This document shows, in pieces, positions 21,085 to 25,501 of a stretch of DNA of 64,000 nt. Position 1 is the stretch's first letter. Every line of letters begins with the position of its first letter. Below the pieces are notes generated by a model that was not told where the DNA came from, did not search any database, and worked only from the letters and a program-made list of their open reading frames with translations. This stretch comes from Salinivenus iranica (GTDB taxonomy: Bacteria; Bacteroidota; Rhodothermia; Rhodothermales; Salinibacteraceae), in contig NCRB01000001.1 in assembly GCA_002894665.1 (NCBI GenBank), forward strand, positions 1 through 64,000. The letters run 5' to 3'. Both the position numbers and the translations under genes were made by a program.

Positions 21085-21115
21085 TTGAAACCCCGTCACG
21101 CCTTATACATTTTTG
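21085..21115 (+). promoter_or_regulatory. Possible carA promoter
   Basis: A TTG at 21085-21087 is followed 18 bp later by TACATTTTTG (21106-21115), close to the Bacteroidetes -33/-7 pattern TTG...TAnnTTTG. It lies between the tonB-like start and the carA leader hairpins and points toward carA. Motif match only. Confidence 0.35.
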
Positions 21116-21194
21116 CCAAGTGGAATTTCCACATAATCCCACGGAGGCACCGGCCCACAGTGCCCCTTCCTACCCCCGTTCCCACACCGCCGCA

Positions 21195-21228
21195 ACCAGA
21201 CCCCGAAGAATTGAGTCTTCGGGCTGGT
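21195..21228 (+). promoter_or_regulatory. carA leader hairpin 1
   Basis: A strong stem-loop: CCCGAAGA (21202-21209) pairs with TCTTCGGG (21216-21223) around loop ATTGAG. An outer ACCAG (21195-21199) pairs with CTGGT (21224-21228), separated by a two-base bulge. It lies directly before the terminator of the same leader and may be the ligand-sensing or pausing element. Confidence 0.6.
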
Positions 21229-21240
21229 CGCCGTTATTCG

Positions 21241-21273
21241 CCTTCCTCCCCGCTCCGGGAGGAAGGTTTTTTT
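21241..21273 (+). terminator. Intrinsic terminator in the carA leader (attenuator candidate)
   Basis: A perfect 10-bp stem CCTTCCTCCC (21241-21250)/GGGAGGAAGG (21257-21266) with loop CGCTCC is followed by seven T. It ends 43 bp before the carA ATG and there is no gene upstream on this strand to terminate. Upstream, CCTTCCTACCC (21165-21175) could pair with the same 3' arm, with one bulged A, forming an antiterminator. Together they suggest transcription attenuation of carA. Confidence 0.85.
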
Positions 21274-21316
21274 GTGTGACCCCCTCGTGCCTACGAATCC
21301 TGGACCGCTCCCCGCC

Positions 21317-22477
21317 ATGTCCCCCCCGACCGCCGCTTCCGACGCCGCTCCCGCCACGCTCGCCCTGTCCGACGGCACCGTCGTGACCGGGACCGCCATC
21401 GGCCATCGTGGCCTCACGGGCGGCGAGCTCTGCTTCAACACGAGCATGACGGGCTATCAGGAAATCATGACCGACCCGTCGTACGTCGGCCAACTCATGA
21501 TGATGACCCAGCCGCACATCGGCAACTACGGCGCGACGGACGAGGACATGGAGGCCGACACCCCGATGGTGGCCGGCTTCATCGTGCGCGACTTCACGCG
21601 GCGGCCCTCCAACCCGCAGGCCGACGAGACGCTCGACACGTTCATGAAGCGCCACGAGCTGGTCGGCATCGCGGGGGTTGATACGCGAGCGTTGGTGCGC
21701 CACATCCGGAGCGAGGGCGTCATGAACGCCGTGATTTCTTCCACCGAGCAGGATTCCGAGACCCTCGTCCAGAAGGCGCGCGACTGGCCCAGCATGGCGG
21801 GGCGCGAGCTGGCCTCGAAGGTGTCGCCCGATGCCGCCTACACGTACTGCGAGGGCGACGGCCCGCGCATCGCCGTCTACGACTTTGGCGTCAAGCAAAA
21901 CATCCTCCGCTCCTTCTGTGCCCGCGGCTGCACGGTGCAGGTGGTGCCCGGCGACACGCCCCTCGACGACGTGCAGGCGTGGGATCCGGACGGGCTCTTT
22001 TTCTCAAACGGGCCGGGCGACCCCCGCGCCATGCCCGACGCCATTGCCCGCGTCGGACGGGCCCTGAAGACGGGTCGACCGGCGTTTGGGATCTGCCTGG
22101 GCCACCAGCTGATGTCGCTCGCGCAGGGCTTCGAGGTCTACAAGATGTTCGTGGGGCACCGCGGAGCCAACCACCCCGTGAAGAATCTCGACACGGGACG
22201 CGTGGAGGTGACGACGCAGAACCACGGCTTTGCGGTCGATGCGGAGTCGATCGACCCCGACGCCGCCCGCGTGACGCACGTGAACCTGAACGACGACACG
22301 ATCGAGGGACTCGAATTCAAGACGTTCGCCGGGCTGTCGCTGCAGTACCACCCGGAGGCCTCGCCCGGCCCGCACGACAGCCACTACCACTTCGACCGCT
22401 TCCTGGAGATGGTCGCGGAGGAGCGCGATGTCACGATTCCGGAAGCGGCCGCCGACCCCGCCACGGTGACGGCGTGA
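21317..22477 (+). CDS. carA: Carbamoyl-phosphate synthase small (glutaminase) subunit
   Basis: CarA hydrolyses glutamine and feeds ammonia to CarB for carbamoyl phosphate, the first step of pyrimidine and arginine synthesis. The 386 residues include the N-terminal CarA domain (FNTSMTGYQEIMTDPSY) and the class I amidotransferase domain, with nucleophile Cys 260 in FGICLGHQLM and the YHPEASPGPHD His/Glu region. The ATG at 21317 is preferred to a TTG at 21272 that would lie in the terminator T-run. Translation follows an attenuator-like leader. carB follows after a 195-bp repeat-filled spacer. Confidence 0.97.
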   Translation: MSPPTAASDAAPATLALSDGTVVTGTAIGHRGLTGGELCFNTSMTGYQEIMTDPSYVGQLMMMTQPHIGNYGATDEDMEADTPMVAGFIVRDFTRRPSNPQADETLDTFMKRHELVGIAGVDTRALVRHIRSEGVMNAVISSTEQDSETLVQKARDWPSMAGRELASKVSPDAAYTYCEGDGPRIAVYDFGVKQNILRSFCARGCTVQVVPGDTPLDDVQAWDPDGLFFSNGPGDPRAMPDAIARVGRALKTGRPAFGICLGHQLMSLAQGFEVYKMFVGHRGANHPVKNLDTGRVEVTTQNHGFAVDAESIDPDAARVTHVNLNDDTIEGLEFKTFAGLSLQYHPEASPGPHDSHYHFDRFLEMVAEERDVTIPEAAADPATVTA

Positions 22478-22672: not shown

Positions 22673-25501
22673 ATGCCCAAGCGCACCGACATTGAGACGA
22701 TCCTCCTCATCGGGTCCGGTCCCATCGTGATCGGGCAGGCCTGCGAGTTTGACTACAGCGGCAGCCAGTCCGCCCGCGCCCTCATGGACGAAGGCTACCG
22801 GGTGGTGTTGGTCAACTCGAACCCGGCCACGATCATGACCGACCCCCTGATGGCCGATAAGGTGTACCTGCGCGAGCTGACGCCCTCGTCGATTGCGCAG
22901 ATTGCGCGGAAGGAGCAGCCCGACGCCGTGCTCCCCACGATGGGCGGGCAGACGGGCCTCAACGTGGCGCAGGACCTGAAGGAGAGCGGCTTCTGGGCGG
23001 AGGAAGGCATCGAGGTGATCGGGGTCGACATCGACACGGTGCAGATCACGGAGGACCGGCAGCAGTTTCGGGACCTCATGGACGAGATCGGCCTCGACCA
23101 GTCCCGGAGCCGGACGGCCAAGAGCCTTCTCGAAGCGAAGGAAATCACGCAGGACCTCGGCGGCCTGCCGGTCGTGATTCGCCCCTCCTACACGCTGGGC
23201 GGGGCGGGGGGCGGCATCGTGTGGAGCGCCGACCGGTTCGAGGAAATGGTGACGCGCGGCCTGGAGCTCTCGCCCGCCCACCAGGTATTGATCGACGAGT
23301 GCCTCTTTGGGTGGAAGGAGTACGAGCTGGAGCTGCTGCGCGACCCGAACGACAACGTCATCATCGTGGCCTCCATCGAGAACGTGACGCCGATGGGGGT
23401 GCACACCGGCGACTCGGTGACCGTGGCCCCGCAGCAGACGCTGACCGACAAGCAATTCCAGAAGATGCGGGACGCAGCCATCCTGGCCATGAACTCGATC
23501 GGCACCTTCGCGGGGGGGTGCAACATCCAGTTCGCCTACGAGCCGGGCACCGACCGCATGATTGTGATTGAGATCAACCCGCGGGTGAGCCGCTCCTCGG
23601 CCCTGGCCTCCAAGGCCACCGGCTACCCGATCGCCAAGGTGGCGTCCAAGCTGGCCATCGGCTACACGCTCGACGAGCTCCCGAACGAAATCACCGGCGA
23701 CACGAGCGCCTGCTTCGAGCCGTCGCTCGACTACGTGGTCACCAAGATCCCCCGCTTCAACTTCGACAAGTTCGAGGGCGTGGACGAGGAGCTGACCACG
23801 CAAATGAAGGCCGTCGGCGAGGTGATGTCGATCGGCCGCACGTTCAACGAGAGTCTGCAGAAGGCGTGGCAGAGCCTGGAGATCGGCTACGCGGGCCTCG
23901 GCGCCGATCGCCCGGACGCCGACCGCGAGACCGTCCGCGAACGGTTGAAAAAGCCGTACTGGGACAACCTGCTGCACGTCCGCCACGCGTTCCGCTACGG
24001 GGCCAGCGTGGAGGAGGTGCACGACGTGACGCAGATCGACCCCTGGTTCCTCCACCAGATCCAGGCCCTCGTGGAGAGGGAAGAGGACATCAGGGAGACC
24101 CCGCTCCGCGAGATGGACGACCGCTTCCTCTGGGAGGCGAAGCGCGCGGGCTTTTCCGACGAGCAGATCGCCTACCTCGTCCCCGACGACGCGGAGGACC
24201 GCGAGGTGCGCGCCCACCGAAAAGACCGCGACATTACGCCGACCTACCAGGTGGTCGACACGTGCGCGGGCGAGTTTCCCGCCGAGACGCCCTACTACTA
24301 CTCCAGCTACGAGACGGTCAACGAGAGCGCGGTGACCGACCGTGAGAAGGTCCTCATCCTTGGCTCCGGCCCCAACCGCATCGGACAGGGGATCGAGTTC
24401 GACTACTCGTGCGTCCACGGCGTGAAGGCCGCGCAGGAGGTGGGCTACGAGGCGCTCATGCTCAACTGCAACCCCGAGACGGTGTCCACCGACTTCGACG
24501 TGGCGGACAAGCTCTACTTCGAGCCGGTCTTCTGGGAGCGGGTGCAGGACGTAATCGACCTGGAACAGCCGGAGGGCGTCATCCTGCAGCTTGGGGGACA
24601 GACGGCGATTAAGCTTGGGGAGCGGTTCGAGGCGGACGGCGTCCACATCTTCGGCACCTCCTACTCGAAGATGGACCTGGTGGAGGACCGCGGGAAGTTC
24701 ACCGACATCCTGAAGCGGCTGGAGATTCCGTCCCCGCCCTACGGCGTGGCGCACTCGGTGGAGGAGGCCGTGGCCACGTCCGACGACCTCGGCTACCCGA
24801 CGCTCATCCGGCCGAGCTACGTGCTGGGGGGGGAGGGGATGCGCATTGCGATTAACCGCGACGAGGTGGCGGAGTACGTCGAGAACATCCTGTCGATCTA
24901 CCCCGAGAACGAGATTCTGCTCGACCGCTTCCTGGAGGACGCGATTGAGATCGACGTGGACGCGGTGTGCGACGGGGAGGAGGTGTGGATCACCGGCATT
25001 ATGCAGCACATCGAGCCGGCGGGCGTGCACTCCGGCGACTCGACGGCCGTCCTGCCGCCGTTCAGCCTGTCGGAGGACATCCAGGAGACGATTCGGCAGT
25101 ACACGCGCGACCTGGCGTTCGAGCTGGGCGTGACGGGCCTGCTGAACGTGCAGATGATCGTGAAGGACGACGTGGTGTACGTCATCGAGGCCAACCCGCG
25201 CGCCTCGCGCACCGTGCCATTTGTCGCCAAGGCCTCGGGCATTCCCATCCCGGCCATCGCCACGAAGGTGATGCTGGGCGAAAAGCTAGCGACTTTCCGC
25301 GAGCGGGGCGACCTGGAGTCCGACCTGACGGGCTACGCCATCAAGGAGCCGGTCTTCTCGTGGGACAAATTCCCCGAAGTGCCGAAGGAGCTGGGCCCGG
25401 AGATGAAGTCGACCGGCGAGTCCATCGCGTTTGTGGACTCCCTCTCGGACGAGCACTTCGAGCAGCCGTATGAAATGAAAGACCTGTACCTGTCGCGGTA
25501 G
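22673..25501 (+). CDS. carB: Carbamoyl-phosphate synthase large subunit, without the C-terminal MGS allosteric domain
   Basis: CarB makes carbamoyl phosphate from bicarbonate, ammonia and two ATP. The 942-residue protein has two homologous ATP-grasp halves, each with a signature start (LLIGSGPIVIGQACEFDYSG at about residue 10 and LGSGPNRIGQGIEFDYS in the second half). A central oligomerization segment separates them. The enzyme usually has about 1070 residues, and this one stops after GPEMKSTGESIAFVDSL of the second half, so the MGS-like domain that binds UMP or ornithine is absent. I recall similar short CarB in other Bacteroidetes, which points to a lineage trait and not to damage. Feedback by UMP at this site would be lost. 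Confidence 0.96.
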   Translation: MPKRTDIETILLIGSGPIVIGQACEFDYSGSQSARALMDEGYRVVLVNSNPATIMTDPLMADKVYLRELTPSSIAQIARKEQPDAVLPTMGGQTGLNVAQDLKESGFWAEEGIEVIGVDIDTVQITEDRQQFRDLMDEIGLDQSRSRTAKSLLEAKEITQDLGGLPVVIRPSYTLGGAGGGIVWSADRFEEMVTRGLELSPAHQVLIDECLFGWKEYELELLRDPNDNVIIVASIENVTPMGVHTGDSVTVAPQQTLTDKQFQKMRDAAILAMNSIGTFAGGCNIQFAYEPGTDRMIVIEINPRVSRSSALASKATGYPIAKVASKLAIGYTLDELPNEITGDTSACFEPSLDYVVTKIPRFNFDKFEGVDEELTTQMKAVGEVMSIGRTFNESLQKAWQSLEIGYAGLGADRPDADRETVRERLKKPYWDNLLHVRHAFRYGASVEEVHDVTQIDPWFLHQIQALVEREEDIRETPLREMDDRFLWEAKRAGFSDEQIAYLVPDDAEDREVRAHRKDRDITPTYQVVDTCAGEFPAETPYYYSSYETVNESAVTDREKVLILGSGPNRIGQGIEFDYSCVHGVKAAQEVGYEALMLNCNPETVSTDFDVADKLYFEPVFWERVQDVIDLEQPEGVILQLGGQTAIKLGERFEADGVHIFGTSYSKMDLVEDRGKFTDILKRLEIPSPPYGVAHSVEEAVATSDDLGYPTLIRPSYVLGGEGMRIAINRDEVAEYVENILSIYPENEILLDRFLEDAIEIDVDAVCDGEEVWITGIMQHIEPAGVHSGDSTAVLPPFSLSEDIQETIRQYTRDLAFELGVTGLLNVQMIVKDDVVYVIEANPRASRTVPFVAKASGIPIPAIATKVMLGEKLATFRERGDLESDLTGYAIKEPVFSWDKFPEVPKELGPEMKSTGESIAFVDSLSDEHFEQPYEMKDLYLSR

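Follow-up and report, generated by a model that had tools for sequence, protein, structure and literature searches.

The carAB operon of Salinivenus iranica is preceded by an intrinsic terminator whose position is conserved across its order, and we predict, with slightly better than even confidence, that this leader is a translation-coupled transcription attenuator of the pyrBI type. A conserved order of promoter, leader, terminator and carA is well supported by sequence comparison among relatives; the signal and the switching we infer from this layout. The features of the locus in the window (the whole 64,000-nucleotide stretch analysed, from contig NCRB01000001.1) are as follows.

21085 to 21113, plus strand: predicted promoter of the Bacteroidota type, with TTG (21085-21087), an 18-nt spacer and TACATTTT (21106-21113); score 8/9
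21143 to 21147, plus strand: GGAGG, possible Shine-Dalgarno sequence (by sequence only), 12 nt upstream of the GTG start (21160), a long spacing
21160 to 21279, plus strand: candidate leader peptide ORF, GTG start, 39 codons, translated as VPLPTPVPTPPQPDPEELSLRAGRRYSPSSPLREEGFFV and a stop
21165 to 21175, plus strand: upstream arm CCTTCCTACCC, present in the sequence and proposed earlier as a competing arm
21195 to 21228, plus strand: stable hairpin (by folding) between a C-rich tract and the terminator, a possible pause hairpin
21241 to 21273, plus strand: predicted intrinsic terminator (attenuator), with a 10-bp stem, 6-nt loop and seven T
21317 to 22477, plus strand: carA, carbamoyl-phosphate synthetase small subunit, the putatively regulated gene; an ORF with relatives 60-93% identical across the class
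22673 to 25501, plus strand: carB, large subunit; an ORF placed in the same operon as carA by position

A conserved terminator upstream of carA

The terminator consists of a 5' arm CCTTCCTCCC (21241-21250), a loop (21251-21256), a 3' arm GGGAGGAAGG (21257-21266) and seven T (21267-21273), and the T-run lies 43 nt before the carA ATG (21317), with the coordinates that the preliminary description of this DNA had given correctly. Transcription is predicted to start at about 21120, and the leader before the terminator end is about 150 nt long. The adjoining upstream gene is on the minus strand and thus, as had also been pointed out, the terminator ends no gene. Our promoter and terminator scan recovered this terminator, but 1.1 terminators are expected by chance in the scanned stretch, so that the statistic from a single genome is weak. 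The nearest named relative, S. lutea (CarA 93% identical), is identical to the window from 21155 to 21279, including the ORF at 21160-21279, while the flanks diverge. As a separate observation, in three relatives (G040, G063 and G064) the CarA open frame exceeds 1300 residues with one internal TGA, which suggests that carA and carB are adjacent and in one frame.

The stronger evidence is comparative, from carA upstream regions of 105 genomes of the window's order, the Rhodothermales. A strong hairpin followed by a T-run is found before carA in 89 of the 105 genomes and in 14 of 15 families; because it occurs in the same place in so many genomes, it is not a local chance occurrence. Promoter sites like that of the window lie upstream of the carA terminator in 35% of genera, compared to 3% in shuffles, and an intrinsic terminator between the promoter and the first gene, one mark of a pyrBI-type attenuator, is present. 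Thus, the earlier suggestion of a switchable leader is well supported as to its parts by order-wide conservation, and the switching is what these parts would imply. The terminator is absent from one family (f14; G039, G049, G058 and G111-G113), in which a promoter-like site is found close to carA. This family is a natural deletion of the carA attenuator that can be used for comparison.

The sequence of the stem is conserved as well as its position. The stem is nearly always CCTTCCC/GGGAAGG, and in 60 whole genomes this pattern matched the carA terminator in 23 and had one match elsewhere, while a reversed control pattern also had one match; the motif thus appears almost exclusive to carA. The sequence is kept beyond what pairing demands. 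The 5' arm contains six or more consecutive pyrimidines in 39 of 40 genera, but this is so in only 1 of 21 background stems, which are other terminators from about 460 kb of the same genomes.

In the Balneolales, another order of the same class (order names are our reading from named relatives), the carA leader has its own conserved terminator, ATCCGAC...GTCGGAT followed by T8, of unrelated sequence (L341-L360, Balneolales and relatives). Since an unrelated conserved stem occupies the same site, position is kept and sequence is lineage-specific. The pyrimidine run is absent from the Balneolales stem.

Leader reading frames and a proposed mechanism

If the leader is coupled to translation, a short reading frame would be expected to reach the terminator. 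The preliminary description had overlooked such a frame: in the candidate ORF at 21160-21279 the terminator lies inside the frame, the T-run is read as FF (Phe-Phe) and the stop follows directly. Because this order is GC-rich, chance often leaves a frame open across the terminator, so the ORF in the window is only a candidate and could be a chance occurrence. Indeed, run-through ORFs within the Rhodothermales are not in excess (43% compared to 52% expected).

Instead, short frames of 12-20 codons in Rhodothermales clades tend to stop at the base of the stem, as in MSPDIPPEPGPCSLAPTPLD, VIGSGPGQLHLRRFRGG, VLYSSSAFGKTNF and VPDVFLVLPDPDWSRSAP, each followed by a stop codon. In 36% of genera, an ATG or GTG opens a frame of at least about 11 codons that ends at the stem base, compared to 17% (sd 4%) in shuffles in which the last 14 nt, the stem-base sequence, were held fixed; none of 400 shuffles reached 36%, although the genomes are related and no shuffle figure is thus a true probability. 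The frequency of stop codons at the base of the stem had looked like strong independent support, but we set it aside, since column composition explains most of it (0.41 observed, 0.37 expected). Of 18 Balneolales genomes, 16 have an ORF that begins with ATG and continues across the terminator, compared to a null of 27% (sd 10%); more than one frame is used, and the frame varies between species.

The leader peptides vary from clade to clade, and no particular codon or peptide appears to be needed. A codon-position test for coding was weak (P 0.09), a result that fits a peptide whose sequence is free but leaves room for chance. Translation of the leader frame is a candidate feature, supported by the ORF statistics.

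In the mechanism that we propose, RNA polymerase would start near 21120 and a ribosome would begin the short leader ORF. When pyrimidine nucleotides are plentiful, we infer that the polymerase would be ahead, the hairpin at 21241-21266 would fold and transcription would stop in the T-run. When UTP and CTP are low, the polymerase would presumably lose speed along the C/U-rich leader and stem and the ribosome would catch up; at the stem base or inside the stem, it would cover the 5' arm and allow readthrough into carA and carB. The T content of carA leaders is only slightly raised, and they have no clear U-rich pause region. One could place the sensor inside the terminator itself, with the CCUUCCC 5' arm slowing the polymerase at low CTP/UTP and a ribosome at the stem base masking this arm ahead of synthesis of the purine arm. 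We regard this refinement as doubtful; the Balneolales stem, which lacks the pyrimidine run, counts against it.

Pyrimidine or arginine as the signal

The product of carAB feeds both pyrimidine and arginine synthesis. An attenuator at this operon might thus respond to arginine: scarce charged tRNA-Arg would stall the ribosome at leader Arg codons beside or within the stem and block the terminator. Such control has a clear precedent in the same genomes, as in most relatives argG (loci L254-L280, for example L268) is preceded by a separate conserved terminator and by a leader peptide frame that is rich in Arg, with CGA/CGT runs; by its sequence this leader clearly appears to be, throughout the order, an arginine attenuator of the textbook type. 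Moreover, Arg codons end the carA frame in some clades (RRFRGG and a stop in Rhodothermus, RPRRR and a stop in family f13, IRRGIRSRIFF in part of the Balneolaceae), and the ORF in the window contains RAGRRY.

If carA were an arginine attenuator, we expected an Arg-rich leader peptide conserved across the clade, as at argG. The 29 carA leader peptides that we compared do not show this: the mean Arg content is 9.5%, compared to 21% for argG, and 6 of the 29 have no Arg at all. This agrees with the earlier statement that the leader encodes no peptide rich in one amino acid. It also counts against arginine that the run-through frame of the Balneolales differs between species. The two leaders are alike in having an ORF and then a terminator, but differ in layout. 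The argG peptides terminate about 25-75 nt upstream of the stem, while carA frames stop at the terminator or within it. In amino-acid attenuators, the terminator is >20 bp from the leader gene, as at argG, while the pyrBI terminator is inside its 135-bp leader gene (PMC4824070), as at carA.

Four relatives (G005, G014, G015 and G021) for which we found neither argG nor argF also retain the carA attenuator; one of these assemblies is in three contigs. The low Arg content, the pyrBI layout and the persistence of the attenuator without detectable argG or argF favour a pyrimidine signal, so that pyrimidine nucleotides are probably what the carA leader responds to, and we consider arginine as the main signal unlikely. 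Clades with terminal Arg codons may have added arginine control.

Terminators before pyrB, pyrE and pyrC were sought and none was convincing, which counts against the pyrBI-type reading. Separately, neither Salinivenus draft (L363 and L364; G000 C128 and G001 C49) yielded a pyrB or argF gene. We rejected a loss of pyrB from the window's genome, as the contigs of both drafts end just after pyrR, likely at an assembly break.

Other readings and known systems

A second alternative, to which we give the same low probability as to arginine, is that a trans-acting RNA-binding protein, PyrR or another, reads the conserved stem and sets termination. The stem is specific to carA and conserved beyond pairing, as such a protein might require, and a pyrR gene is present in the window's genome. 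PyrR-controlled pyr attenuators, which are described by the Rfam PyrR element, likewise have a terminator in the leader of a pyrimidine operon. However, an Rfam search of the leader found no riboswitch or PyrR family match, either at the gathering threshold or at E up to 1, which extends the earlier remark that the PyrR-binding consensus is not matched here. The carA leaders also lack a conserved anti-antiterminator fold or any other conserved second structure for exchange, and an RNA-binding protein would have to contend with the unrelated stem of the sister order.

It is less probable that the terminator is constitutive and partial, serving, without any sensing, to fix the level of expression or to release a small RNA from the leader. 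The sensor at carA is itself only a putative one, and an sRNA, P32, made from the carA 5' UTR in Pseudomonas syringae is thought to be an attenuation product (PMC4997734). Long conservation before a biosynthetic operon that has leader ORFs, and the use of two unrelated stems at the same position, argue against a role without sensing.

The least probable alternative, by a little, is the mutually exclusive antiterminator put forward in the preliminary description, in which CCTTCCTACCC pairs with the terminator 3' arm and governs folding: the arm is present in the window, where the duplex has ten pairs and a single bulge (z -2.4), but upstream pairing with the terminator arms is no better than chance over 40 genera (mean z -0.06 for the 3' arm and 0.4 for the 5' arm), and the sister species S. 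lutea, being identical here, is uninformative on covariation. Similarly, the strong hairpin described between the arms is a stable fold in the window (-22.9 kcal/mol, z -3.05 in a fold of 21160-21240; the entire leader has z -4.1), but its mean z is 0.02 over the 40 genera, and it is restricted to the window and the sister species and, weakly, some family members. Neither the Rfam search nor the pairing tests over 40 genera found a conserved antiterminator or aptamer in carA leaders.

We return to the pyrBI-type attenuator. In E. coli pyrBI, with its pyrL leader peptide, as at carA here, a terminator lies between the promoter and a pyrimidine-pathway operon, a short ORF extends into the terminator or past it, the peptide sequence is apparently free and no antiterminator is found. 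The carA case differs in that the gene is carA rather than pyrB, a clear U-rich pause is missing, many of the peptides stop at the base of the stem, and leader translation and the UTP response are predicted ones. The same operon is involved in Pseudomonas, a member of a distant phylum that we liken by description and not by leader sequence; PMC4997734 cites work that describes pyrimidine attenuation of carAB and, in P. aeruginosa, a leader peptide. The carA motif SRC-12-1 of Polynucleobacter (Betaproteobacteria) is likewise an RNA element upstream of carA, but its extended hairpin beside the RBS (PMC8632094) is absent here. We found no report of a carA attenuator in this lineage in the open literature, and neither Salinibacter nor any carA gene is mentioned in the main text of a survey of premature terminators (PMC2965389). 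With moderate confidence, we therefore regard the predicted carA attenuator as one of a known kind, that of pyrBI, which is apparently unreported in this lineage.

If this reading is correct, nucleotide-sensing, ribosome-coupled attenuation would act at the first step of pyrimidine synthesis and would be a conserved feature of a class of Bacteroidota-related bacteria. Transcription would then be closely coupled to translation at the carA leader, and the locus would be a natural reporter of this coupling. Moreover, the carA and argG attenuators in one genome would separate the two users of carbamoyl phosphate.
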